A DNA stretch of 64,000 bases. It comes from Streptomyces sp. NBC_01314. GTDB lineage: Bacteria; Actinomycetota; Actinomycetes; Streptomycetales; Streptomycetaceae. The DNA lies in contig NZ_CP108394.1 in the NCBI RefSeq assembly GCF_041435215.1, positions 3,782,001-3,846,000 of the forward strand. The letters are read 5' to 3'. Position numbers and translations under genes: made by a program. Of the stretch, positions 2,996 through 13,646 are shown one piece after another (the stretch's first letter is position 1; every line of letters starts with the position of its first letter). The notes beneath the pieces are model-generated. The model was not told the origin of the DNA. It did not search any database and saw nothing but the letters and a program-made list of their open reading frames with translations.

Positions 2996-3505
2996 TCAGC
3001 TCTCTTCGAAATCCCCCGCCGCCACCCGCAGCGGCCGGAGCATCGCGAAGATCTCCGCGCATTCCTCGGTGTCGTAGGCGCCGAGGCCGAAGTCCATGGA
3101 CATGAGGTCGCGGGTCGCGGCGTCGCAGACCTCGCGGCCCTTGTCGGTGATGGAGGCGAGGGTGCCGCGGCCGTCGTTGGGGTTGGGGCGTTTGTCGACG
3201 AGGCCGGACCTCACCAGGCGGTCGACGGTGTTCGTCACGGACGTCGGGTGCACCATGAGCCGTTCGCCGATCTTGGACATCGGCAGCTCACCCTTCTGGG
3301 AGAAGGTGAGCAGCACGAGCGCCTCATAGCGCGCGAACGTCAGCCCGTACGGCTTGACCACCGCGTCGACCTCCGCCAGCAGGATCTGCTGGGCGCGCAT
3401 GATCGATGTGATCGCGGCCATGGACGGGACGTTCCCCCAGCGCTGCTTCCAGTGCTCGTCGGCGCGCGAGATGGGATCGAAGGAGAGGCTGAGCGGCTTC
3501 GGCAC
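2996..3505 (-). CDS. MarR family transcriptional regulator
   Basis: Protein of 169 residues with a winged helix-turn-helix: MSKIGERLMVHPTSVTNTVDRL is the recognition region and the wing carries the family's DGRGTLASITDKGREV element. MarR proteins are dimeric repressors that often respond to small aromatic ligands. The C-terminal region after the wing is short and helical. The start is ATG 3505. The gene is convergent with the DUF3817 gene and lies just beyond the tandem repeat. No adjacent efflux or enzyme gene identifies its target. Confidence 0.9.
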   Translation of the reverse strand: MPKPLSLSFDPISRADEHWKQRWGNVPSMAAITSIMRAQQILLAEVDAVVKPYGLTFARYEALVLLTFSQKGELPMSKIGERLMVHPTSVTNTVDRLVRSGLVDKRPNPNDGRGTLASITDKGREVCDAATRDLMSMDFGLGAYDTEECAEIFAMLRPLRVAAGDFEES

Positions 3506-3515
3506 GGCATCGACC

Positions 3516-3749
3516 TTACCGGCCGGTCATATGCTGGTCAGCCCCGTCTCGCTTTTCGGTACGACCCGGGGCCCTGTGGGTGCCCAGGTGGTCGAGGACG
3601 CGGTCGCCCTTGGGGTCCACCACCCTCTGGGCGTCGAACCGGCGGGACCGGCCGGGCAGGCCGAAGGTACGCGCGAAAGGCTGCGGCCCGCCCTCCGCGC
3701 GCGGGAGGTAACGGATCTCGGTGAAGCGCGGATCCCAGCAGCAGGCCAC
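3516..3749 (-). CDS. Small hypothetical ORF
   Basis: A 77-residue frame with GTG start and high third-position GC, immediately downstream of a terminator hairpin and just upstream of the MarR gene on the same strand. The product is basic, with no membrane segment or domain that I recognise. There is no good ribosome binding site. It could be a genuine small gene or the remnant of a longer one. Confidence is low. Confidence 0.3.
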   Translation of the reverse strand: MACCWDPRFTEIRYLPRAEGGPQPFARTFGLPGRSRRFDAQRVVDPKGDRVLDHLGTHRAPGRTEKRDGADQHMTGR

Positions 3750-3755
3750 GAGAAG

Positions 3756-3779
3756 ACCCCGGCCCAGAGGGACCGGGGT
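3756..3779 (-). terminator. Hairpin downstream of the split thiamine-binding gene
   Basis: GC-rich stem ACCCCGG...CCGGGGT with a three-base loop and one bulged base, 26 bp after the stop codon of the C-terminal gene remnant. It is probably the original terminator of the DUF3817-thiamine-binding operon. Confidence 0.6.
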
Positions 3780-3804
3780 TCTCGAAGTGGAAGTGTGCCC
3801 ACGG

Positions 3805-3967
3805 CTACGCGGACAGGTGGCGCTCCACCCTCTCCACCTTCGACGTGAGGCCGTCGGTGACGCCGGGCCGGATGTCGGCCTTGAGGACCAGGGAGACGCG
3901 GGGGGCGCGCTCCTCGACGGCGGCGACCGCTCGCCGTACGACGTCCATCACCTCGTCCCACTCGCCC
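3805..3967 (-). pseudogene. C-terminal half of an MTH1187/YqgV-type thiamine-binding protein, cut off by the integrative element
   Basis: Reads [20 protein letters not shown] and continues through LKADIRPGV to the stop, which is the second half of the DUF77/thiamine-binding fold (COG0011, about 97 residues). The matching N-terminal half lies 6.9 kb away at 10862-11008 on the same strand. Joining them at the shared GGC codon gives SIEG-EWDEV, the uninterrupted family sequence. The remnant has no start of its own. An open frame extends into the element to 4011 but carries unrelated residues. The wild-type protein is small and cytosolic and is thought to bind thiamine or a derivative. Confidence 0.85.
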
Positions 3968-3990
3968 GAACGTGGGCAGGGTTGAGTACA
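3964..3990. other. Left attachment junction with attP half-site
   Basis: GCCC core, then 16 bp, then GAGTACA at 3984-3990. The outer side (3963 and below) is thiamine-binding gene sequence. Combined with the right junction it rebuilds a symmetric attP. Confidence 0.8.
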
Positions 3991-4246
3991 TAGCGATCTA
4001 CGTCGCTCCACGGACGATCCCTGCCCAGCACAGATACAAACGCGCCTCAGGTCAGGAGACGTGCTAGCCGGTCACCCAGGCGTTCAGCCAAAACGAGGCT
4101 ACGCCGACCGGGGCGGGTCCCTGCCAAGGTTGCACGCAGACCCCGGGGCTCCCGATTTCGCGGGAACGTGTGCGCGCCGGGGGGCCGGGTCCCTGGGACC
4201 TCTTCGCTCAGAGATTGACCCACCCCCCGGTGCCCAGACATGAGAT

Positions 4247-4276
4247 AGGCCGTCCACCATGGCGGGCAGACGGCCT
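4247..4276 (-). terminator. Hairpin after the resolvase gene
   Basis: AGGCCGTC paired with GACGGCCT across a 14-base loop, directly after the stop codon of the resolvase gene on the minus strand. Confidence 0.5.
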
Positions 4277-4277
4277 C

Positions 4278-4877
4278 TCAAGCCGGGCCGGGTCGCTCCG
4301 TGTCGACAAGCGCCCGATACAGCGTCGCGCGGGACACCTTGAGCGCCTTGGCAATGGCCGTCACACTCTCGCCCTTCGCCTTCCGGGCACGAGCGGCAGC
4401 CAACTTGTCAGCGCCCATGACGGACGGCCGCCCACCCGTCCGACCCTGAGCCTTGGCAGCGTCCAGACCCGCCCGGGTGCGCTCAACGATCATGTCTCGC
4501 TCAAGCTCAGCAAAGGCAACCATCATCGTGAAGAAGAACTTGCCCTCACCCTTCGGGGAGTAGCTACCGGCCAGCGTGCCCGTCAGAATCCGCAGCGCGA
4601 TCCCCCGGGCGTGCAGATCCTCGGCGATCGTGAGCACGTCCTTGGTGGAACGACCCAACCGGTCCAGCTTCCACACGGTGAGAGTGTCGCCCTCCCGCAT
4701 GTAGTCGAGAGCAGCGAGCAGCCCGGCACGGTCGGCATTCTTGCCGGACGCCTTGTCCTCGAAGATGCGGGCGCACCTTGCCTCAGCGAGAGCGTCCGCC
4801 TGAAGCTGCGCGTCCTGCGCATTGGTGCTGACTCGCTGGTAGCCGATCAAGGTTCCGGTGCTCTTCGCCGTCGTCAC
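4278..4877 (-). CDS. Small serine recombinase, resolvase/invertase family
   Basis: Protein of 199 residues. The catalytic domain has GYQRVSTNAQD with nucleophile Ser17, the LDRLGRSTKD motif around residue 73 and the FAELERDMIVERTRAGL helix. A Hin-type C-terminal helix-turn-helix follows (SVTAIAKALKVSRATLYRAL). Such enzymes resolve cointegrates or multimers or invert DNA at short dyad sites. An inverted repeat of about 21 bp lies directly upstream and probably is its site and operator. The start is GTG 4877. It is distinct from the large integrase at 9454-10851, so its job may be to resolve multimers of a circular form of the element. Confidence 0.93.
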   Translation of the reverse strand: MTTAKSTGTLIGYQRVSTNAQDAQLQADALAEARCARIFEDKASGKNADRAGLLAALDYMREGDTLTVWKLDRLGRSTKDVLTIAEDLHARGIALRILTGTLAGSYSPKGEGKFFFTMMVAFAELERDMIVERTRAGLDAAKAQGRTGGRPSVMGADKLAAARARKAKGESVTAIAKALKVSRATLYRALVDTERPGPA

Positions 4878-4880
4878 ACC

Positions 4881-4949
4881 GAGACCGTCTCATAACTCGT
4901 CTCAAAACATCAAGCCTTTCGAGCATGTTCTGAGACGGGTTTTGAACAC
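4881..4949. promoter_or_regulatory. Inverted-repeat res-like site upstream of the resolvase
   Basis: Two imperfect copies of a sequence with core TGAGACGnGTTnTGA face each other: minus strand at 4887-4908 and plus strand at 4927-4949, separated by 18 bp. A further palindrome, GAGACcGTCTC, lies at 4881-4891 just before the resolvase start. The arrangement fits paired recombinase-binding subsites that also repress the resolvase gene. Confidence 0.6.
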
Positions 4950-5102
4950 CGAAAGCACCCCTCGGACTGCCTCACATGGCCATCTCAATAACCATCGTTT
5001 GATAGACGGCCCTCTGATGATCACGCACAGCAACACCCACAGAGGCAGTCAGTTTCCCGCCTCACGGGTTCTCGCCTTTCCGGTTGATGACTGGTCGGTT
5101 GG

Positions 5103-5894
5103 TTACCTGATCCGACCCACGAGTGCGGAGACTCGGACATATTCAGTGAAGGGTCGGTCCGTTGGTAGCGACTGCCGGATGTACTCAGCAAATGCCGGTC
5201 GGTCGTCCGGCGCGGGCAGATCATCCTCAGGGATCGCGGAGTAGACCCCGCCGATGAGTTGTTCGAAGCTCAACTCGTCGCTGTATTCGCTCACGATCTC
5301 CCGCACATCTTCGAAACCGGCGGCATCGAGTGCCTGGGCATACCGAATCCGGTCATGCGAGGCGGTTCCGCATGACGCCTCCAGCTTTGTGTGGAAGTGG
5401 TGCTCCAGACAAGCCCGAAGCGACCGTGACCAGGCGCTGTCCTGCAACCACAACGGCGTCCCGTTGCTGACCACGGCAATACCTCCCCCTGCCCGGAACA
5501 GCGGTGACAGGTCGCGGAAGAGGTCATCGTGTTGCATCCAGTGGAGCGCCTGCCCGATGACCGTCATCGCCAGAGACCCCTTTCCGACCAGCGCACCCAG
5601 CCCCGGAATGTCGGTGTCGGAGCCGAGTACCCACGTCGCATTCCGCACGCCGTGGCTCGCGGCTGTTTCCCTGGCCAGCCGAAGCATGTCGGGTTCGGGA
5701 TCCATGCCGATGACCGAGCGGGCCCGGGAGGCGAGCGGAACGGCGAGCTGTCCGGTTCCGCATCCGAGGTCGAGGACGACGTCGTTCGCGGTCACTGCGA
5801 AGGCTGCTTGCAGCGCGTCGAGTACCTCAGGCGGGTAACCACGCCGAAACTTCGCGTAGTACGTGGCAGCGTCACCACTGAATCCCAAAGTCAT
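5103..5894 (-). CDS. Class I SAM-dependent methyltransferase
   Basis: Protein of 263 residues with the Rossmann methyltransferase motif I LDLGCGTGQL at 41-50, an acidic residue at the end of strand 2 (GMDPEPDML) and QALHWM, as in the methyltransferase-11/25 group acting on small molecules. It shows no DNA-methyltransferase motif such as DPPY or NPPF. The ATG at 5894 is preferred over an upstream start 12 codons away because GGTGAGG lies just before it and the conserved GDAATYYAKFRRGYP segment begins at once. The gene is element cargo on the integrase strand. Its substrate is unknown. Confidence 0.85.
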   Translation of the reverse strand: MTLGFSGDAATYYAKFRRGYPPEVLDALQAAFAVTANDVVLDLGCGTGQLAVPLASRARSVIGMDPEPDMLRLARETAASHGVRNATWVLGSDTDIPGLGALVGKGSLAMTVIGQALHWMQHDDLFRDLSPLFRAGGGIAVVSNGTPLWLQDSAWSRSLRACLEHHFHTKLEASCGTASHDRIRYAQALDAAGFEDVREIVSEYSDELSFEQLIGGVYSAIPEDDLPAPDDRPAFAEYIRQSLPTDRPFTEYVRVSALVGRIR

Positions 5895-6202
5895 GGCCTC
5901 ACCCTGCCCAGCGCAGTCCCGGCGAGACACCTCCTTTGTGGACTGATCGCTACCAGCTGAAGTCTGGTCACTTCGAAAGGCCTGTGACAGACCCCATCAA
6001 CTGAGACAGGCATCCGCACTCGCGGGACCATGACCAGGGCGGAACCCCCTTGCGGGACCATGCACACAGACATGCTCTGAACTGCGGCCTTTCCCACCAG
6101 TTCCGGCAATTTCCCGCGCGCACACGCGGCAGGAAGGGCGCGGGTGCCCAGAAGGGGAGTCGGAATGTTTCACACCCCTTCCCCGGCCTGCCAGGAAGAC
6201 CG
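5895..6202. other. Intergenic stretch without a convincing gene
   Basis: Presumed promoter region of the methyltransferase gene. The only structure I see is an 11-bp direct repeat GCGGGACCATG at 6022 and 6052. Confidence 0.5.
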
Positions 6203-6925
6203 TCAGCGCGTCGCCATGTGCGGCGGGGACCACTCGTCCATCAACTGATCCTTCTTCGACGCGTTGCAGAGCACGCAGACCACGCGCATGTTCGCGACCG
6301 CCGAGAGCCCGCCCCGCGATATGGGGACCAGATGATCAACCACACCCCCTTCGGGAAGCGGCGCAGAGCAGTGGAAACATCCGGCGTCCCCGTGCGCCTT
6401 ACGCACGCGACGCTGAAGCGTGACCCGACGTGCCACCATGCGCTGCACCTTCTGACATGAACGGCACACCCCGTCACGGAACTTGAGAACCACGGGCGTG
6501 CCACAGCGCCGACAGGGAACCGGCTCAGGCTTGGTACGGGCACGCTTACGGACGTACTCAGCGGCACGGCGGCATGCGTCAGAGCAGCAGGCGCGATCAC
6601 GGCCACCCGACAGACCTACAGGCTCCGAGCACTTCGGCCCCCGACACAGATTGCGGGCCACCTGCTCCCTCTCGCGCTCCACCCGCTTACGGTGCTCGGC
6701 CCGGCGCAACGCGTCCACCTCCTCAGCGCAGCGCACGCAGTACAGCGCCCAGGAAACCCGGCCATGCGGCTCATCACAGCGGTGGCAACGTTGAGCGCCA
6801 GCGGCAGCACGCGCCGCCTCACGCGCACGACGGGCGGCAATTGCAACCGGGCTGACTCGACACACAGGCTCGCGCCGCACGTCCTGCGATCCGCACGGGG
6901 ACGTGTACCACCACACTCCGAACAC
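6203..6925 (-). CDS. HNH endonuclease domain protein with several zinc-finger CxxC pairs, probably frameshifted at its 5' end
   Basis: The C-terminal 60 residues form an HNH motif: a CFHC pair, VVDHLVPISRGG with the catalytic His, a conserved Asn, then CVLCNASKKDQ. Three further cysteine clusters precede it (CHRC...CVRC, CRGPKC...CSDAC, CRRCG...CRSC), suggesting stacked zinc ribbons. The open frame begins at 6925 without a ribosome binding site. A good AGGTGA site lies 6 bp before a TTG at 6954 in another frame, which encodes a further zinc ribbon (TCSECGG...RTCGASLC). A single-base change near 6850 would join the two. It is probably a nuclease of the element, now damaged or wrongly read there. 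Confidence 0.75.
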   Translation of the reverse strand: MFGVWWYTSPCGSQDVRREPVCRVSPVAIAARRAREAARAAAGAQRCHRCDEPHGRVSWALYCVRCAEEVDALRRAEHRKRVEREREQVARNLCRGPKCSEPVGLSGGRDRACCSDACRRAAEYVRKRARTKPEPVPCRRCGTPVVLKFRDGVCRSCQKVQRMVARRVTLQRRVRKAHGDAGCFHCSAPLPEGGVVDHLVPISRGGLSAVANMRVVCVLCNASKKDQLMDEWSPPHMATR

Positions 6926-7075
6926 GTTGCGCGCGACTCATCAAGGGCAGACAAGCGAGATCACCTTTCCATTTTTGTTGATCATGGAGTGTTCCGCGAG
7001 GGCGCTACAGGCCAGCAGCTGCAACGGTCGAGGTTGGGTTCCGGGCAAGGGGTAAAGAGGCAAAGCAGGGGCTAG

Positions 7076-7091
7076 TACTCCAGCCGTAGAT
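7076..7091 (+). repeat. Left terminal inverted repeat of the IS
   Basis: 16 bp identical to the reverse complement of 9260-9275, next to CTAG at 7072-7075. Confidence 0.9.
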
Positions 7092-7122
7092 TGTGATCTT
7101 GTCCGTGGGGGTCGGTGCGGAC

Positions 7123-8466
7123 ATGGGTACGGCCACCGTTGATCATCGGTGTGTGAAGACAAACGATCATGCGGTGGCCGCAGGTCACAGCGTAGACCCT
7201 GCCCGTTGGCAGGAGGCGTTCGAGGGCCTGATGAGCCAGATTGCAGGCCGGTTCAGTCGGGTCGAACCGCGGCGTCGGGTCCGGCAGTTGGTGCTCGGAA
7301 TGCTCTCGGATCTGCCGCGCAAGAACTGCTGGAGCATGGCCGAGTGGGCCGGGGAATCCACCCCGGACGGCATGCAGCACTTGCTCGGGCGGGCCAAGTG
7401 GGACGCCGACCAGGTCCGCGACGACCTGCGCGGCTATGTCCTGGAGCATCTGGCAGACGACCAAGCGGTTCTGGTGGTCGACGAGACCGGGGACGTGAAG
7501 AAGGGCACCAGCACGGTCGGCGTCCAGCGCCAATACACGGGCACCGCTGGCCGGATCGAGAACGCGCAGGTCGCTGTCTACATGGTCTACGCAGGTCAGC
7601 GCGGGCATGCGGCCGTGGACCGGGAACTCTACATTCCGCGCTCCTGGACCTCGGATCCTGACCGGTGCCGCGCCGCAGGGCTGAGAGAAGAGACGCGCTT
7701 CGCCACCAAGCCGGAGCTCGCGGCCCGCATGGTCACTCGGTTTCTGGACGCCGGCCACCGTGCCACCTGGGTTGCGGGCGACGAGGTCTACGGCGGCGAC
7801 CCGAAACTGCGAACCGCGCTGGAGGTGCGCGGCATCAGCTACGTGCTCGCGGTGGCGTGCTCACACGGCGTCACCACCGGTGCCAGGAAGTTCCGTGCGG
7901 ACAGCCTCGCCAAGAAGGTGCCCAAGCGGGCTTGGCAGAAGCTGTCCGCCGGGGCCGGGGCAAAGGGCCACCGCTTCTACGACTGGGCCGTTATTGATCT
8001 CACCGATGCCGGACCCGGCAGTCGCCAACTCCTGATCCGCCGCAACCGCAGTACCGGCGAAGTCGCCTACTACCGCTGCTACTCGCCCGAACCGGTTCCC
8101 CTGACCACGCTGGTGCAAGTCGCTGGGTCCAGGTGGCGAGTCGAGGAGTTCTTCCAGGCCGGAAAGGGCCTGGCCGCCCTGGACGAGCACCAGGTCCGCC
8201 GCTACGCATCCTGGTCCCGCTGGGTCACCCTCGCCATGCTCGCGCATGCCTTCCTGGCCGTCGTCCGCGCGGACGAACACGCCCGCAGCCCCACACCGGA
8301 CGGCCTCATACAGCTCACCTGCAACGAGATCCAGCGCCTGTTCATTACGCTCGTCGTCCGGCCCGCCCCCGACATCGCCCATCGGCTCAGCTGGTCCGAC
8401 TGGCGCCGCCGCCATCAGGCCCGATCCCGGACCAGCCACTACCAGCGCCGATCCGTTCCGGCATGA
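7123..8466 (+). CDS. IS701 family DDE transposase
   Basis: Protein of 447 residues from ATG 7123; a GTG at 7093 within the terminal repeat region is less likely and a later GTG start is possible. The DDE acidic triad is visible: VVDETGDVKKG, then WVAGDEVYGGDPKLR, then RWRVEEFFQAGKG. The N-terminal RKNCWSMAEWAGESTPDGMQ and QRQYTGTAGRIENAQ segments are those of Streptomyces IS701 transposases. It cuts and pastes the element using the terminal repeats. The frame is intact, so the IS may still be active. Confidence 0.95.
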   Translation: MGTATVDHRCVKTNDHAVAAGHSVDPARWQEAFEGLMSQIAGRFSRVEPRRRVRQLVLGMLSDLPRKNCWSMAEWAGESTPDGMQHLLGRAKWDADQVRDDLRGYVLEHLADDQAVLVVDETGDVKKGTSTVGVQRQYTGTAGRIENAQVAVYMVYAGQRGHAAVDRELYIPRSWTSDPDRCRAAGLREETRFATKPELAARMVTRFLDAGHRATWVAGDEVYGGDPKLRTALEVRGISYVLAVACSHGVTTGARKFRADSLAKKVPKRAWQKLSAGAGAKGHRFYDWAVIDLTDAGPGSRQLLIRRNRSTGEVAYYRCYSPEPVPLTTLVQVAGSRWRVEEFFQAGKGLAALDEHQVRRYASWSRWVTLAMLAHAFLAVVRADEHARSPTPDGLIQLTCNEIQRLFITLVVRPAPDIAHRLSWSDWRRRHQARSRTSHYQRRSVPA

Positions 8467-8535
8467 AGGGCAGGACCTGCGGCAGAGACGCGGCGGGGTT
8501 GGCAGCGATGACTGCCGTTCCTAGGCTCGGCTGCC

Positions 8536-9207
8536 ATGACGGTTCTGATCACCGTGTGGGGAGCATCTCCCGGAGTGGGCAAGTCGACGCTTTGCGCCGG
8601 CCTGTCCCGATGGCTTGCCGATGCGGGACTGCGGGTGGACCACTTCCGCGAGGAAGAGATCTTGACCAGGCCGCAGTTTGCCCCGGTGGCTGAGGAGTTC
8701 AAGGCGACCGGCGCCGTCGACCTGGGGACGTTGATCGCAACAACTGCCGAGTTCGTTGACGCGGTTCTGGCGACCGGCGATGACGTGGTGATCGCGGACG
8801 CCCTGATGCCGTTCGTGCCGACGCTGCTGGCCATGGGGCACGGCGAAGAGACGATCGATGCATTCATGACTGAGCTCACAGAGGTGCTCGCGCCGCTCTG
8901 CCCGGTCATGGTCTTTCTCGATGGGAACGCCGAAGCTGCATTGTCCCGAGCCGCCAGGAGAGAAGGGGAGCAGTGGCTGGACTGGTATGTCGAGAAGCTC
9001 GCCCGCTCCGAGGTAAGCCCTCCAGTGGCTGACGTCGCGTCGGCGGTGAAGTACCTGCTGCGCGAGCGTGCGGTGACGCTCGACACCGTCGGCCGGAAGA
9101 ACTGGGGACTCGTTGTGATCGAACCAGCCGATGGACTGCCGCCTGATGACGTGCTGCGGGTCGCGCAGCGGGGCTTAAGGCCGTGGTTGGGCAGGCCCGC
9201 ACCCTGA
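8536..9207 (+). CDS. P-loop NTPase, passenger gene inside the IS
   Basis: Protein of 223 residues. It begins with a beta strand and Walker A motif, GASPGVGKST (residues 9-18), and later has VVIADALMP as a likely Walker B region and FLDGNAEAAL. The overall layout resembles small nucleoside-kinase or dethiobiotin-synthetase-like P-loop proteins, but I cannot place it in a named family. It lies 69 bp after the transposase on the same strand and inside the right terminal repeat, so it moves with the IS. It could aid target choice or benefit the host; this is conjecture. Confidence 0.8.
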   Translation: MTVLITVWGASPGVGKSTLCAGLSRWLADAGLRVDHFREEEILTRPQFAPVAEEFKATGAVDLGTLIATTAEFVDAVLATGDDVVIADALMPFVPTLLAMGHGEETIDAFMTELTEVLAPLCPVMVFLDGNAEAALSRAARREGEQWLDWYVEKLARSEVSPPVADVASAVKYLLRERAVTLDTVGRKNWGLVVIEPADGLPPDDVLRVAQRGLRPWLGRPAP

Positions 9208-9259
9208 GTAGGACGGGCCTGGCAATGCGTAACTGCCGCACGCCGCCACGCCCGTAACG

Positions 9260-9275
9260 ATCTACGGCTGGAGTA
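9260..9275 (-). repeat. Right terminal inverted repeat of the IS
   Basis: Exact reverse complement of 7076-7091, followed by CTAG at 9276-9279. Confidence 0.9.
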
Positions 9276-9453
9276 CTAGCGGACCCCCCCGGACGACACT
9301 TCGTCACACCGCCGACGAAACCCGAACCGAAGTGCGATACCAAGCTCGCCTCTAGACACAGCCGCCGACGGCACCGCAGGGAGGGGCGCACACCCCCAGG
9401 AGTGCCGAACGGCCCGCCGCCGGGGGTTACCGACAACGGGCCGTGAACGGCGC

Positions 9454-10851
9454 TCACACGGGCGCCTGGTCGAGTAGGCCGCTTTCCACGAGGGCGATGC
9501 CCTGTAGTTCGGCTTCCGCCCAGCCTTCCGGCCCCCACTCGACTCTCAGCCGCTCCGCCTCCTGCTTCGGCCACAGGGTCACCCGCAGGTGTAGGTCAGC
9601 GAGCAAGCGGCTACGCGACTCCGGCGAAGCCTCCCATGCATCCGCCATGGTCCGGCCGGTGGGAACTTGGATCTCCCGCACCTCCGGGTCATGAGCGGCC
9701 CGCAGAGCGGCGTAGGCGGCTTCTAGCTCTGCTTCCATCTCGCTCAGTGTCGCCAGCATCAGCGGCCCGGCGGTGGCCATGCGTTCCCCCAGCCGGCGAG
9801 CTTGCTCCTGAGCAGCGATCATCTCGTCGGAAAGATCGTTCCCACCTTCCAGGCGCACTACGTGCTCAGCGAACTTCCCCCAGGTACGCAGGAATTCGGC
9901 CTCCACCCGCTGATCCAACGTCTCTGCGTAGATCGTCACGTGGCCAGCCTTACAGCGGTACAGCGGGATGCCCTTATCGCTGGTTCCGCCATTGAGCCTG
10001 CCCGCGCAGCGATAGCAGAACGCCAGACCAGCAACCAGGGGAGTCGCCCGGCGTGGTGCACGGTCGGTGCCGGTGGCCAGCGCGAGTAGACGTTCCCGGA
10101 CGGCTTTTGCTTCGGCGGCAGTCAGGATCGGGTCGGCGAACTGAACCGGCGTGACGCCATCGGCAGACAGCACCAGGGCGCCTTTGTGGGCACGGTGGCC
10201 CCGGAGCGTCGGCGACTTCAGGAGTCTGCGCCACTGGGGTTCAGACAAGCCGACCATGCGGGCGGTTCCCGCTACCGTGCCATCGCTGATCAGCTTGGCC
10301 ACTGCAGCGCGGATGAGCTCGGCCTGCGCATCGTCGACGGCGAGATAGGCCGCACCATCCCGCCGGGTGATCTGGTAACCGAACGGCGCTCTCCCGCTGG
10401 ACCACCGCCCCTGTGTCCGGCGCGTCTCGTGCCCTTCGCTGATACGGGCAGCGATCATGCTGCGTTCCCACTCAGCGAGGGCAGCGAGGACGTTCCCCAC
10501 CATGCGGCCAGTCGGTGTGCTGGTGTCGATCGTGTTGTCTGTGGTCGCGATCTTGACCCCATAGGCTTCCGCCCACGCCACCAGCCGCAGGAACTCGCTC
10601 ATGCTGCGGGCGTAACGGTCCAGCTTCCATGCGATCACCACATCAGGCCTTGCCACCATCAGCGCCGACATGCCCCTGCGCTGCTCCAGCGGCTTGGCTC
10701 CGCTGACGCCTGCATCTATGTACTCGATGGCTTCGGCCGGGTCGTGCCCATGGGCGGTAAGCCACTGATGGGCCGCAGCGCGCTGGGTCTCGGTTGAAGC
10801 ACTGTCGTCGCTCTCGCGGGACAGTCGCAGGTAGATCGCCGTGGTGGCCAT
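9454..10851 (-). CDS. int: Large serine recombinase (integrase) of the integrative element
   Basis: Protein of 465 residues from ATG 10851. It has a resolvase-type catalytic domain (AIYLRLSRESDDSAS, nucleophile Ser11; WKLDRYARSMSE), a recombinase domain (PFGYQITRRD), a zinc ribbon (CYRCAGRLNGG...YRCKAGH) and a C-terminal coiled coil. This is the architecture of phiC31-type integrases, which join attP to attB without host factors. A TGGAG site lies 3 bp before the ATG. The start codon touches the attP arm TGTACTC. After integration the gene lies in line behind the DUF3817 gene and the truncated thiamine-binding frame, so the host operon could drive it. An upstream in-frame start at 10971 lies in host DNA and is an artefact of the junction. 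Confidence 0.95.
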   Translation of the reverse strand: MATTAIYLRLSRESDDSASTETQRAAAHQWLTAHGHDPAEAIEYIDAGVSGAKPLEQRRGMSALMVARPDVVIAWKLDRYARSMSEFLRLVAWAEAYGVKIATTDNTIDTSTPTGRMVGNVLAALAEWERSMIAARISEGHETRRTQGRWSSGRAPFGYQITRRDGAAYLAVDDAQAELIRAAVAKLISDGTVAGTARMVGLSEPQWRRLLKSPTLRGHRAHKGALVLSADGVTPVQFADPILTAAEAKAVRERLLALATGTDRAPRRATPLVAGLAFCYRCAGRLNGGTSDKGIPLYRCKAGHVTIYAETLDQRVEAEFLRTWGKFAEHVVRLEGGNDLSDEMIAAQEQARRLGERMATAGPLMLATLSEMEAELEAAYAALRAAHDPEVREIQVPTGRTMADAWEASPESRSRLLADLHLRVTLWPKQEAERLRVEWGPEGWAEAELQGIALVESGLLDQAPV

Positions 10852-10877
10852 GTACTCCAGGCTACCCGCGTTTGCCC
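10851..10877. other. Right attachment junction with attP half-site
   Basis: TGTACTC at 10851-10857, 16 bp, then the GCCC core at 10874-10877, beyond which host gene sequence begins. The arm is the mirror image of that at 3984-3990, with identical 16-bp spacing. Confidence 0.8.
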
Positions 10878-11008
10878 TCGATCGAGGTGAACATGACATC
10901 GGTACGGTTCGGCAGGCCCGATGCGCGGACGACCCGTACGGCGTCGGCGACGTGCTCCGCCACGTCCTCACCGACGCCGAGCGGGGTCACGGAGAAGGCG
11001 ACGATCAC
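10862..11008 (-). pseudogene. N-terminal half of the split MTH1187-type thiamine-binding protein
   Basis: GTG start at 11008 overlaps the TGA of the DUF3817 gene (GTGA), so the two were translationally coupled. It reads [20 protein letters not shown], then [16 protein letters not shown], after which three element-encoded residues and a TAG follow. The 48-residue product lacks the second half of the fold and is unlikely to work. Its other half is at 3805-3967. Confidence 0.85.
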
Positions 11009-11370
11009 GCTTTCACGGCCCCTTCGTCCTCGTCGCGGGCGCGGGAGCGGGACGCGAGCGCCGCCCCGACCGCGTTCTCGGCCTCGCGGCGGAGCTTGCG
11101 GTCGGCGAAGAAGCCGCCGGTGGGCAGGACGGAGAGGGCGAAGTAGAGCGCGGCGGTCTTCGGGGACCACTTCGTGCGGTTCCAGGCGTCGGCCCAGAAG
11201 ACCAGGTACAGGATGAAGAGGGTGGCGTGGACCCAGCCCATCACCGGCACCGCGTTGAAGTCCGTGGTGCGCTTGAGCACCGAGCAGACGAGCAGCAGCA
11301 GGAAGGAGACGGCCTCGGGGGCGGAGACGAGGCGCAGGCGGCGGAGGGCGGAGGCGGTCTTTATGTCCAC
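11005..11370 (-). CDS. DUF3817 family membrane protein
   Basis: Protein of 121 residues with three hydrophobic segments (about 17-35, 43-63 and 72-88), a [15 protein letters not shown] motif and [12 protein letters not shown], as in the DUF3817 gene at 2584. The C-terminal 25 residues are charged. It overlaps the thiamine-binding protein start by 4 bp, which suggests that the pair worked together, perhaps at the membrane. With the downstream partner split, this is now the last intact gene of its operon. Confidence 0.87.
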
Positions 11371-11555
11371 TGGTCACCTTCGGTGAGGTCGGCGGGGAGA
11401 GTCGTCGCGTCGCTTGGCGATCCTTGTGAACGGAAGCACAAGCGACGTCCATTCTGGCATCCGTCAACCTCCCGATGGCCCTAGGGGTCCCTTCGGGGAC
11501 GAGATCCCCCTCAAGTACCTGTCCTGTCCCCCCTTTGGCCGGTTACCGTCACCCC

Positions 11556-12194
11556 GTGGCAATGTTCCGACTTCAAGGCAGCAAAGTGCTGGCCGTCGAC
11601 ATGACCGGGAACGCCGTCAAGGCGAAGAACGGCTCGATGGTCGCCTACGACGGTCAGATGTCGTTCAAGAAGCTGAGCGGCGGCGGTGAGGGTCTGCGCG
11701 GGATGGTGACGCGGCGCCTCACGGGTGAACAGATGACGTTGATGGAGGTGACCGGGCAAGGGACCTGCTGGTTCGCGGACCGGGCGTCCGAGATCAACCT
11801 TGTGAATCTTCAGGGGGACAAGCTGTACGTGGAGTCGAGCAATCTGCTCGCGACGGACTCCGGACTGCGCACGGGCACGAGTTTCACGGGGCTGCGCGGC
11901 GCCTCGCAGGGCAACGGCCTGTTCACCACGACCATCGAGGGCCACGGCCAGGCGGCGATCATGTCCGACGGCCCGGCGGTGGTGCTGAGGGTGAGCCGCC
12001 AGTACCCGCTGACGGTGGACCCGGGGGCGTACATCGCGCACCAGGGCAACCTCCAGCAGTCCTTCCAGTCCGGTGTGACATTCCGCACACTCATGGGCGA
12101 GGGCGGCGGCGAGGCCTTCCAGATCCGCTTCGAGGGCGACGGACTCGTCTATGTCCAGCCCAGCGAGCGCAACACGGTGGCGGGAGACGTGTGA
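11556..12194 (+). CDS. AIM24 family protein, first of three
   Basis: About 212 residues beginning (V)AMFRLQGSKVLAVDMTGN, from GTG 11556 or ATG 11562. No ribosome binding site is evident, so the message may be leaderless. The fold is the all-beta AIM24/TRAP-like domain: SMVAYDGQMSFKK, GTCWFADRASEINLVNLQGD, LYVESSNLLA, GLFTTTIEGHGQ and VDPGAYIAHQGN. AIM24 proteins in bacteria have no settled function; the yeast member acts in mitochondrial inner-membrane organisation. The next gene starts 1 bp after its stop. Confidence 0.88.
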   Translation: MAMFRLQGSKVLAVDMTGNAVKAKNGSMVAYDGQMSFKKLSGGGEGLRGMVTRRLTGEQMTLMEVTGQGTCWFADRASEINLVNLQGDKLYVESSNLLATDSGLRTGTSFTGLRGASQGNGLFTTTIEGHGQAAIMSDGPAVVLRVSRQYPLTVDPGAYIAHQGNLQQSFQSGVTFRTLMGEGGGEAFQIRFEGDGLVYVQPSERNTVAGDV

Positions 12195-12195
12195 C

Positions 12196-12846
12196 ATGGC
12201 CTTCCGTGAGATCAACTCGAAGATGATCGAGGCGACCGTGATGCCGGGCCAGCGGCTGTTCAGCCAGCGCGGCGCGATGCTCGCCTACAAGGGTGAGGTG
12301 TCCTTCACCCCCAACGTGCAGGGCGGTCAGGGCGGTATCGCGTCGATGATCGGCCGCCGGGTGGCGGGCGAGGCGACGCCGCTGATGACGGTCGAGGGCA
12401 GCGGCACGGTGCTGTTCGGGCACGGTGGTCACCACATCCAGGTGATCGGCCTGACCGGCGAGACCCTCTACGTCGAGGCCGACCGCCTGCTGGCCTTCGA
12501 CGGCACCCTTCAGCAGGGCACGATGTTCATGGGCTCGCAGGGCGGCGTCATGGGCATGGTCCGGGGCCAGGTGACCGGCCAGGGCCTGTTCACCACCACC
12601 CTCAAGGGGCACGGGGCGGTCGCGGTCATGGCGCACGGCGGGGTCATCGAGGTCCCGATCACCCCCCAGCGCCCGGTCCACGTGGACCCGCAGGCGTACG
12701 TGGCGCACCACGGCGACGTACGCAACAAGCTGTCCACCGCGCTCGGCTGGCGCGACATGGTGGGCCGGGGCTCCGGTGAGGCGTTCCAGCTGGAGCTGAG
12801 CGGCAGTGGTGCGGTGTACGTCCAGGCCTCGGAGGAGAAGCTGTGA
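12196..12846 (+). CDS. AIM24 family protein, second of three
   Basis: Protein of 216 residues from ATG 12196, with the same block order as its neighbour: GAMLAYKGEVSF, GSGTVLFG, LYVEADRLLAFDG, GLFTTTLKGHG, VHVDPQAYVAHHGD and GEAFQLELSGSGAVYVQ. It shares its last bases with the start of the third gene (GTGA overlap), so the three are cotranslated. They may form a mixed beta-barrel oligomer; this is inference. Confidence 0.88.
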   Translation: MAFREINSKMIEATVMPGQRLFSQRGAMLAYKGEVSFTPNVQGGQGGIASMIGRRVAGEATPLMTVEGSGTVLFGHGGHHIQVIGLTGETLYVEADRLLAFDGTLQQGTMFMGSQGGVMGMVRGQVTGQGLFTTTLKGHGAVAVMAHGGVIEVPITPQRPVHVDPQAYVAHHGDVRNKLSTALGWRDMVGRGSGEAFQLELSGSGAVYVQASEEKL

Positions 12847-13646
12847 GCATGTACGGGGCTCCGGGCGCCGGCCCGACCGTCCACGACCCGATGACGCTGC
12901 CGTCCGACGACAACGTCAACAACTACACCTTCTGCGTGGAGCTCAAGGGGAGCCAGTGGTTCCTGCAGAAGGGCAAGATGATCGCCTACTACGGCCAGAT
13001 GGAGTTCAACGGCATCGGACACGGCCGTTTCGGCGGTCTCGTCCGTACGTCTTTTCATTCGCCTCTGCACGCGAGCGACTGGGTCGTCGCCGAGGGCTCC
13101 GGCAAGATGCTCCTCGCCGACCGGGCCTTCGACGTCAATTCGTACGACCTCGAAGACGGCAACCTGACCATTCGCTCGGGCAACCTCCTCGCTTTTCAGC
13201 CAACTCTCGCGCTGAAGCAGTCGATCGTCCCGGGCTTCCTGACCCTGATCGGCACGGGCAAGTTCGTGGCGGCCTCCAACGGCCCGGTGGTGTTCATGGA
13301 ACCCCCCATCCGGGTCGACCCCCAGGCGCTGGTCGGGTGGGCCGACTGCCCCTCCCCGTGCCACCACTACGACCACGGTTACATGGCGGGCCTCATGGGC
13401 GGCCTACGTGCGATGACGGGCATCGGCGGCGCCTCCGGTGAGGAGCACCAGTTCGAGTTCGTCGGGGCGGGCACGGTCCTGCTCCAGTCGTCCGAAACCC
13501 TGATGGCGGAGCAGGCCACGGGCATGGTCCCGCACGAGCCGGGCGTACCCGGCGGCGGCGGGGTACCCGGTGCGCACGGACAGCCGGCGGGGGCACCGCG
13601 CCTTCCCGGACAGCTGGGGGACCTCCAGCGTCGCTTCGGGCTGTGA
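12843..13646 (+). CDS. AIM24 family protein, third of three, with Gly/Pro-rich tail
   Basis: Protein of 267 residues from GTG 12843. It diverges most of the three. It has a 25-residue N-terminal extension, two conserved blocks (GKMIAYYGQMEFNG, IRSGNLLAFQ) and a motif CPSPCHHYDHGYM rich in Cys and His that the others lack and that might bind metal. The last 45 residues are a Gly/Pro linker ending in a short basic helix. It ends just before a terminator hairpin, closing the operon. Confidence 0.86.
   Translation: MSMYGAPGAGPTVHDPMTLPSDDNVNNYTFCVELKGSQWFLQKGKMIAYYGQMEFNGIGHGRFGGLVRTSFHSPLHASDWVVAEGSGKMLLADRAFDVNSYDLEDGNLTIRSGNLLAFQPTLALKQSIVPGFLTLIGTGKFVAASNGPVVFMEPPIRVDPQALVGWADCPSPCHHYDHGYMAGLMGGLRAMTGIGGASGEEHQFEFVGAGTVLLQSSETLMAEQATGMVPHEPGVPGGGGVPGAHGQPAGAPRLPGQLGDLQRRFGL

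Follow-up and report, generated by a model that had tools for sequence, protein, structure and literature searches.

A 6.9-kb serine-integrase element in a thiamine-binding protein gene of Streptomyces sp. NBC_01314, with a candidate packaging site that may relate it to phage satellites

Integration into the thiamine-binding protein gene

In a 64,000-bp stretch of the genome of Streptomyces sp. NBC_01314 (NZ_CP108394.1, positions 3,782,001 to 3,846,000; this whole stretch is called the window, and coordinates refer to it), the gene of an MTH1187-type thiamine-binding protein lies in two pieces on the minus strand (3805-11008), split by a 6,910-bp element. We regard this arrangement as very probably the outcome of single-crossover integration at a conserved site by a phage-type large serine integrase. 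The N-terminal half (10875-11008, including the GG core discussed below) belongs to an open reading frame (ORF) at 10862-11008 that matches positions 1-45 of the PF01910 profile with 44.0 bits, and the C-terminal half (3805-3966, without a native start) to an ORF at 3805-4011 that matches positions 44-92 with 42.9 bits, the cut-off being 24.9. Both half-genes are in one frame across a GGC codon, with the joined reading SIEG + EWDEV, and are the sole PF01910 matches of the genome (E 0.001), i.e. there is no second copy. The N-terminal ORF continues past the GG core via the residues KRG to a TAG codon at 10862-10864, and the minus-strand integrase gene (9454-10851) abuts the right junction, its start overlapping the end of an attachment-site arm. 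The original prediction, made from the letters of the window, had described the split by a 6.9-kb element, the in-frame rejoining at GGC, the abutting integrase and two readable junctions, all of which the analysis bears out.

Comparison with 30 loci in which the gene is joined, and with rebuilt and free copies of the element's attachment site (attP), places the crossover at GG dinucleotides at 3965-3966 and 10875-10876, so that the excised circle would be 6,910 bp long. The 50-bp attP rebuilt from the genome under study (G000; other G and L handles denote the genomes, loci or viral contigs compared with it) reads TGTACTCAACCCTGCCCACGTTCG-GG-CAAACGCGGGTAGCCTGGAGTACA and is a 24-GG-24 imperfect palindrome with an arm symmetry of 18/24. 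Its integrase-side arm (10851-10874) and core form the N-half junction (10851-10876, minus strand), and its far arm (3967-3990) and core the C-half junction (3965-3990, minus strand). The site in the host (attB) is located mid-gene within the PF01910 coding sequence. In the proposed mechanism, a single attP x attB crossover at the GG dinucleotide within the SIEG|EWDEV codons would fuse each half-gene to a 24-bp attP arm and disrupt the gene, the integrase-side arm extending into the integrase start codon; recombination of the two sites by this enzyme is predicted from their sequences. No transfer RNA (tRNA) gene was found in the 64-kb window, hence the integration site is not a tRNA site, and an Rfam scan of 3500-11500 yielded no match at the gathering score.

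The gene is widespread in the genus, as the original prediction implied when it placed attB in a conserved coding gene: a PF01910 match over the cut-off is present in 189 of the 199 sampled genomes, and 183 reach E 4.3e-20 or better, a value that separate half-genes do not attain. Eight genomes have weaker matches alone (G000, G002, G021, G057, G094, G154, G187 and G197), and another eight have none. In the 30 fetched loci, which are the best-scoring PF01910 matches, a selection that favours whole genes, both halves are joined without exception, and a DUF3817 gene precedes the joined gene in every one, as it does immediately upstream of the split gene in the window (11005-11370, minus strand; PF12823); the MarR gene on the other side of the locus falls inside the short fetched flank in three. 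These loci provide the empty site that had been expected in relatives, and no pair of separate short genes was seen among them. That the split is an artefact, or that two short genes are naturally separate, has practically no likelihood in view of the 30 joined loci, which rule out the two-gene version, the free attP found independently in phage contigs and the occupation of the same place in six genomes.

Occupied sites and free attP in phage contigs

A serine recombinase match at E 1e-3 occurs in 265 of 392 genus genomes, and integrases at least 69% identical to that of the element in five of them (G000, G057, G276, G256 and G257), the next relative being that of G205 with 43%. One more, 70% identical, comes from G481, one of 197 genomes of the order (a sample that overlaps the first). 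All six integrases at 69-100% identity flank one half of the thiamine-binding protein gene, and the integrase under study would thus belong to a family that uses this one site. The integrase follows the N-terminal half, codirectional with the host gene, in three genomes (G000, G057 and G481); in the other three (G256, G257 and G276) it adjoins the C-terminal half and runs in the opposite direction. The elements of G057 and G481 measure only about 2.2 kb and 2.5 kb, and G057, G276 and G481 retain little besides the integrase. Nevertheless, we rejected elements made up of the integrase alone as the norm: small as G057 and G481 are, G257 and G276, which have lost the N-side junction and part of the N-terminal half, look eroded. 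Two further candidates for occupied sites were also discarded, G205 because its gene is whole, and G154 (locus L130) because it has a net 38-bp insertion a few codons past the core and no integrase element. The latter appears to be an independent disruption of the thiamine-binding protein gene beyond the attB core (L130, 3881-4210).

The strongest, and independent, confirmation of the predicted attachment site is the free, unrecombined attP with a GG core directly upstream of the integrase gene in the IMG/VR phage contigs G392 (39.4 kb, integrase 71% identical), G393 (34.6 kb, 70%) and G394 (41.3 kb, 64%). Their arm symmetries are 18/24, 19/24 and 17/24, respectively; the rebuilt attP of G057 and G256 has 15/24 each, against 6.2 (standard deviation 2.2) for random GC-rich sequence. 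The integrase-side arms of G392 and G000 match at 23 of 24 positions. An imperfect palindrome of about 50 bp that differs from attB and has the identical central dinucleotide was found in G000, G057 and G256 and, in the free form, in G392-G394. The phage status of these contigs rests on the collection, and for G394 also on terminase and portal genes; in G392, G393 and G395 the ORFs near the integrase are unnamed.

The phage contigs share a small gene on the side of attP opposite the integrase (L104, 2777-3082, minus strand; L107, 14517-14768, plus strand), which encodes 101 and 83 aa in the two measured cases and is also located before attP in L091 and L092. It is a candidate recombination directionality factor (RDF), because its position is that of the phiJoe directionality factor; a tblastn search of the G000 element at E 1e-4 gave no match to it.

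Core polarity and its limits

The central dinucleotide sets the orientation of serine-integrase recombination, as stated in an excerpt of PMC3783163 that cites Ghosh 2003 and Smith 2004. From this rule, a GG core on the integrase strand would place integrase and host gene in the same direction (G000, G057, G481), and a CC core would place them head-on (G256, with G257 and G276 showing the same gene arrangement). Read on the host-gene strand, the G256 core is also GG, but the integrase lies on the other side, which makes attP CC on the integrase strand; judged by its sequence, G256 is a natural example of one site used with the polarity reversed. Elements in both orientations at a single natural site would make the core-polarity rule checkable in nature.

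The arrangement also suggests how the integrase may be expressed. In G000 the truncated host ORF reaches its stop codon, a TAG, 10 bp ahead of the integrase ATG; in G057 it ends with a TGA, 4 bp ahead of the integrase. In the integrated state of these two elements the integrase could be read from the host gene transcript or promoter, and in the circular state from the far end of the element; reading from the host promoter would not apply to CC-type elements.

Several observations weigh against this account or narrow it. The phage contig G395 encodes an integrase of 63% identity next to a core of TG, so not the whole integrase family need use this site (G395 may use another). In G481 the N-side fits, with GG and a 24-bp arm, but the C-side core is AG where GG is expected. 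G257 and G276 have damaged junctions, are placed by the C-side alone and carry changes at or beside the core there. The polarity flip has one fully readable CC-type element as support, and in a tree of ten integrases the number of polarity changes is not resolved. In the integrase itself, PF07508 (recombinase domain) is absent from the matches even at E 10, a level at which the HMMER filters drop most matches above 0.1, and the zinc ribbon PF13408 is weak (E 0.022) and under the cut-off. With these points taken into account, the integration mechanism appears settled as far as sequence can settle it, and the analysis defines precisely what may be a new integrase/attP/attB set, located in a gene that most of the sampled genus genomes carry.

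Just inside the left attP arm (3984-4009) the window contains GAGTACATAGCGATCTACGTCGC; the part TAGCGATCTAC is also found where the integrases of G057 and G392 begin (GAGTACATGAC...TAGCGATCTAC). A second integrase, placed head-on at the C-terminal half, may have left this trace, in which case the element could be composite.

The large serine integrase

The integrase has 465 aa, and its ATG shares the A with the end of the attP arm. Its catalytic domain matches PF00239 with 5.4e-31 over residues 5-150 and contains the string YLRLS, which we take to be the YxRxS serine motif of the resolvase catalytic domain; the integrase profile phrog_95 covers residues 4-434 (1.5e-66). The integrases of G124, G083 and G224, which accompany related elements (see below), show PF07508, unlike that of G000. 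Among the relatives from named phages, none of the 20 records listed exceeds about 31% identity and all 853 stay below 60%, as do all 1,784 on plasmids; one further contig scan gave nothing closer than a 30% relative. At the 3' end of the gene lies a conserved segment (9285-9467, minus strand) common to elements with other integrases: it is 91% identical to G124, and most of it is 74% identical to G057.

Large serine recombinases have been catalogued by the thousands and grouped by the gene they disrupt, including 33 at one prolyl isomerase gene site, according to an excerpt of PMC10083194. The grouping by disrupted coding gene resembles the situation described here; the difference is that the search stated in the excerpt used PF07508. 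As this domain is not listed for the G000 integrase, its subfamily would be passed over by PF07508-based surveys. Sites in coding genes are also recorded in excerpts on the phiJoe/SCO2603 elements of Streptomyces, at a radical SAM gene and 74 bp from its end (PMC5311408), and on phage Samy, which likewise targets a radical SAM gene (PMC12924846). The original prediction had held a coding-gene attB to be unusual for this enzyme class, a view that does not stand, as such sites are common in these sources; what may be new is the particular gene. No publication naming the thiamine-binding/MTH1187 gene as an integration site was found in the open-access literature, some of it judged on title and abstract opening.

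Contents of the element

Read from the right, the element contains the integrase, an insertion sequence (IS) of the IS701 family with a passenger gene, an HNH endonuclease gene, an S-adenosylmethionine (SAM) methyltransferase gene and a small resolvase gene, followed by about 290 bp to the left junction. The IS (7076-9275) is flanked by CTAG (7072-7075 and 9276-9279) and bounded by inverted repeats (7071-7094/9257-9280) with 24-nt arms that are 96% complementary. Its plus-strand transposase (7093-8466) scores 422 bits with NF033540 against a cut-off of 150, and the passenger gene on the same strand (8536-9207) has weak nucleotide-kinase-like matches (CbiA, 1.9e-4; phrog_761, 4.7e-4). The transposase over the NCBIfam cut-off, the terminal repeats and the CTAG flanks agree with the IS701 family; the passenger gene sets this copy apart. 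The IS accounts for 2.2 kb of the 6.9 kb and has a 100% identical copy at C1:180694-182902, passenger gene included; it is missing from the otherwise contiguous G124 element, and both facts mark it as a recent arrival. A 97% identical full-length copy resides on a Streptomyces europaeiscabiei plasmid, and all 18 plasmid records that match the IS at megablast level are from Streptomyces. Subtracting the IS leaves an element of about 4.7 kb.

The remaining genes are all on the minus strand. The HNH gene (6203-6954), recognised by HNH profiles, is split over two frames in comparison with G124, its pieces corresponding to residues 1-40 and 36-248 of the G124 protein. The SAM methyltransferase (5103-5930; PF13649, 3.5e-14) is cargo, with another ORF in its slot in G124. 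The 199-aa small serine resolvase/invertase (4278-4877) matches PF00239 with 4.2e-40 as well as HTH_7, and is 95% identical in G124. Profile scans of six ORFs (Pfam, NCBIfam, PHROGs, PADLOC), with smaller ORFs outside the scan, recognised no virion structural gene, replication gene or regulator. Nor was a directionality factor recognised in 3990-4277, where one 64-aa ORF lies, a region in which no RDF profile was run. The original description of the element as complete is not borne out, given the IS701 insertion, the frameshifted HNH gene and the lack of a recognised directionality factor.

A backbone found with different integrases

Parts of the element recur elsewhere. At the nucleotide level, G124 is 91% identical to G000 in the resolvase region, 85% in the HNH region and 91% in the integrase-end segment, with a different integrase and a different ORF in the methyltransferase slot. 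In G083 and G224 the resolvase (68-69%) and the HNH gene (76-78%) are found next to further integrases, and in G256, which is integrated at the same site as G000, the resolvase is shortened and its 3' flank is related. Within 295 genus genomes, the HNH type occurs near full length in G124, G224 and G083 only, plus G000 in two frames, and as a fragment in G254; to phage HNH proteins it shows only short matches, with 31-38% identity, or 35-47% over 32-51 residues. The recurrence of one backbone with swapped integrases speaks for a family of mobile elements and against the decay of a single prophage. The frameshifted HNH gene and the IS suggest that the G000 copy may no longer move.

A small resolvase 55-95% identical to 4278-4877 and a large serine integrase share a strand, with their starts about 1.6-6.6 kb apart, in at least 17 pairs (G124, G263, G118, G083, G152, G069, G097, G104, G030, G255, G265, G278, G019, G245, G040, G045 and G022), which were picked by eye among the matches listed, without a control.

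A cos-like segment

The stretch from the resolvase to the left junction contains a segment (4180-4227, minus strand) that is 86% identical over 49 columns to the phage contig G394, where its counterpart occupies the gap between the HNH gene and the gene of the small terminase subunit (TerS). A second phage contig, L146, has a 21-bp exact match in its own HNH-TerS gap; the terminases of the two contigs are 29% identical. The alignment of G000 to the G394 gap scores 59, against a shuffle mean of 18.6 (z 17.3), and that to the L146 gap scores 42 (z 10.5); G124 scores 52 and 37 with the same gaps, and in all four comparisons none of 500 shuffles scored as high. In phage HK97 an HNH nuclease is encoded directly upstream of terminase and cos and acts with the terminase on cos, as an excerpt of PMC10448857 describes, and on this precedent we read 4180-4227 as a candidate cos packaging site.

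Among 392 genus genomes, the pattern GGGYCAAWYTCYGAG-6to20-GGGACC occurs in two, both times inside the element (G000 and G124), and the reversed control in none; a nearly identical pattern occurs in two viral contigs, in both cases in the HNH-TerS gap. G000 and G124 are homologous DNA and hence count once, and as the pattern was drawn with G394 in view, L146 is the only independent viral match. By a hand estimate the number of pattern matches is by itself not beyond chance, the position in L146 being the independent part. The gaps of G394 and L146 have no match in G083, G224 or G256, the best comparison being G083 with L146 (12 of 500 shuffles as high), and the presumed terminase-side gap of G395 shows no convincing match to any of the five elements. 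Named phages provided no match to the segment at E 0.01; relaxing the threshold to E 5 yielded just one stretch of 30 bp (87%), which lies in a gene of Microbacterium phage Arroyo (E 0.6). For the G394 gap they gave nothing beyond 30 bp of Synechococcus phage S-PM2 (E 0.2).

Shorter motifs were abandoned as packaging-site markers. GGGTCAATCTCTGAG occurs in 50 viral contigs, of which only L146 (plus L181, the G394 contig, which was added) has a downstream match to the large terminase subunit; L155 has a weak one elsewhere than downstream of the motif. GGGGTCAAWYTCTGAG occurs in 28 viral contigs, none with such a match downstream. With most motif contigs lacking a downstream terminase, the short motif alone means little. 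A second packaging-site type drawn from G083 and G256 (AGGGACCGYAMCGTGATG) was found in no viral contig and was dropped.

How the element may travel

Transfer between cells would most likely take place inside phage particles, a statement that is less sure than the one on integration. The reading that we tentatively place first, with confidence that stops short of calling it probable, is that of a phage satellite: upon infection by a cos phage the element would be excised, copied or concatenated, and packaged through the cos-like site by the phage terminase, with the HNH nuclease possibly helping in cos cleavage and the resolvase possibly resolving multimers. It accounts for the alignment of the segment with the HNH-TerS gaps of two distant phages and for the confinement of the pattern, in the genus, to two elements of the same backbone; G394 carries, in addition, the same integrase type and a GG attP. 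The small size without the IS is comparable with the 6,110 bp given for PICMI115 in an excerpt of PMC10803314, and the want of recognised structural genes in the six scanned ORFs is in keeping with it. On the other side stand the reduction of G000 and G124 to one homologous case with L146 as the sole independent viral match, the missing segment in G083, G224 and G256 (which share parts of the backbone) and in the G395 stretch, the lack of a convincing match in named phages, the frameshift in the HNH gene and the failure to recognise a replication gene, regulator or directionality factor.

A prophage relic is a realistic alternative, though on balance doubtful. A temperate phage of about 40 kb would have lost all but its integrase, HNH gene and cos region, with the resolvase, the methyltransferase and the IS as later arrivals. 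Phage contigs of 34.6-43.0 kb do carry the same integrase family with attP, the order attP-integrase-HNH-cos is that of G394, the elements of G057, G276 and G481 have kept little besides the integrase, and the frameshifted HNH gene would fit decay. Independent decay, however, does not predict a resolvase-HNH backbone (68-91% nucleotide identity) that recurs in G083, G124 and G224 beside different integrases; moreover, the HNH protein matches phage HNH proteins over short stretches only, and both attP arms and cores are intact.

We consider it unlikely that the element is a phage-independent integrase island of the SCO2603 kind, spread by other routes or by generalized transduction, with an incidental cos-like segment. 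Elements of that type may consist of nothing but recombination genes or reach 40 kb, and they have the integrase type in common with phage phiJoe (excerpt of PMC5311408), and the segment is missing from three backbone relatives; yet such an island would leave the match to two HNH-TerS gaps unexplained, and the far end, where no RDF profile was run, yielded no recognised RDF homologue.

Building on the satellite reading, we tentatively propose, as a possibility rather than a probability, a family of minimal Streptomyces satellites of about 4-5 kb, comprising a resolvase, a cargo slot, an HNH gene and a phage cos site (the latter in G000 and G124), in which the integrase and its address would be swapped via temperate phages. 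The thiamine-binding address would have been borrowed from phages of about 40 kb, and the GG and CC cores would show polarity switching outside the laboratory. If this is true, G394, with the same integrase type and a cos-like site, is a natural helper candidate. Should the cos-like segment prove functional, the element would rank among the smallest satellites known to us and be the first of such build that we found in Streptomyces, with a candidate helper type.

Comparison with known elements

The closest likeness is to the phiJoe/SCO2603 elements, which, in the excerpt of PMC5311408, are small and variable, have a phage-type serine integrase at one junction and related phage integrases, and use an attP of at most 50 bp with an imperfect inverted repeat and a central GG. 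They differ in a site near the end of the radical SAM gene, as opposed to mid-gene in PF01910, in an RDF gene at the other end, where none was recognised here and no RDF profile was run, and in lacking, as far as the excerpt goes, the recurrent resolvase/HNH backbone and cos-like segment; we do not count the element as a member. PICMI elements are also very small, integrated and without capsid genes, but those described in the excerpt of PMC10803314 belong to Vibrionaceae, are located beside fis, encode alpA and a primase and have no cos or pac site identified. Neither alpA nor a primase was found among the scanned genes of the element, and its site is PF01910, not fis. MulchRoom and MiniFlayer are satellites of Streptomyces phages with an HNH gene, but the excerpt of PMC10690885 credits both with genes for terminase, portal and capsid, and MulchRoom also with a tyrosine integrase, none of which was recognised here; the known Streptomyces phage satellites, as covered there, carry far more genes than the element. 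We found no description of a Streptomyces satellite with a serine integrase, an HNH gene and cos in the open-access literature, judged on title and abstract opening.

Neighbouring genes

A second DUF3817-like ORF is located at 2584-2925, beyond the MarR gene, and the MarR gene together with a relative of this ORF (57-66%) is found near the joined gene in three of the 30 fetched loci. On the plus strand, three successive ORFs (11475-12194, 12151-12846 and 12843-13646) appear by eye to be tandem paralogues, which we presume to be AIM24-like.

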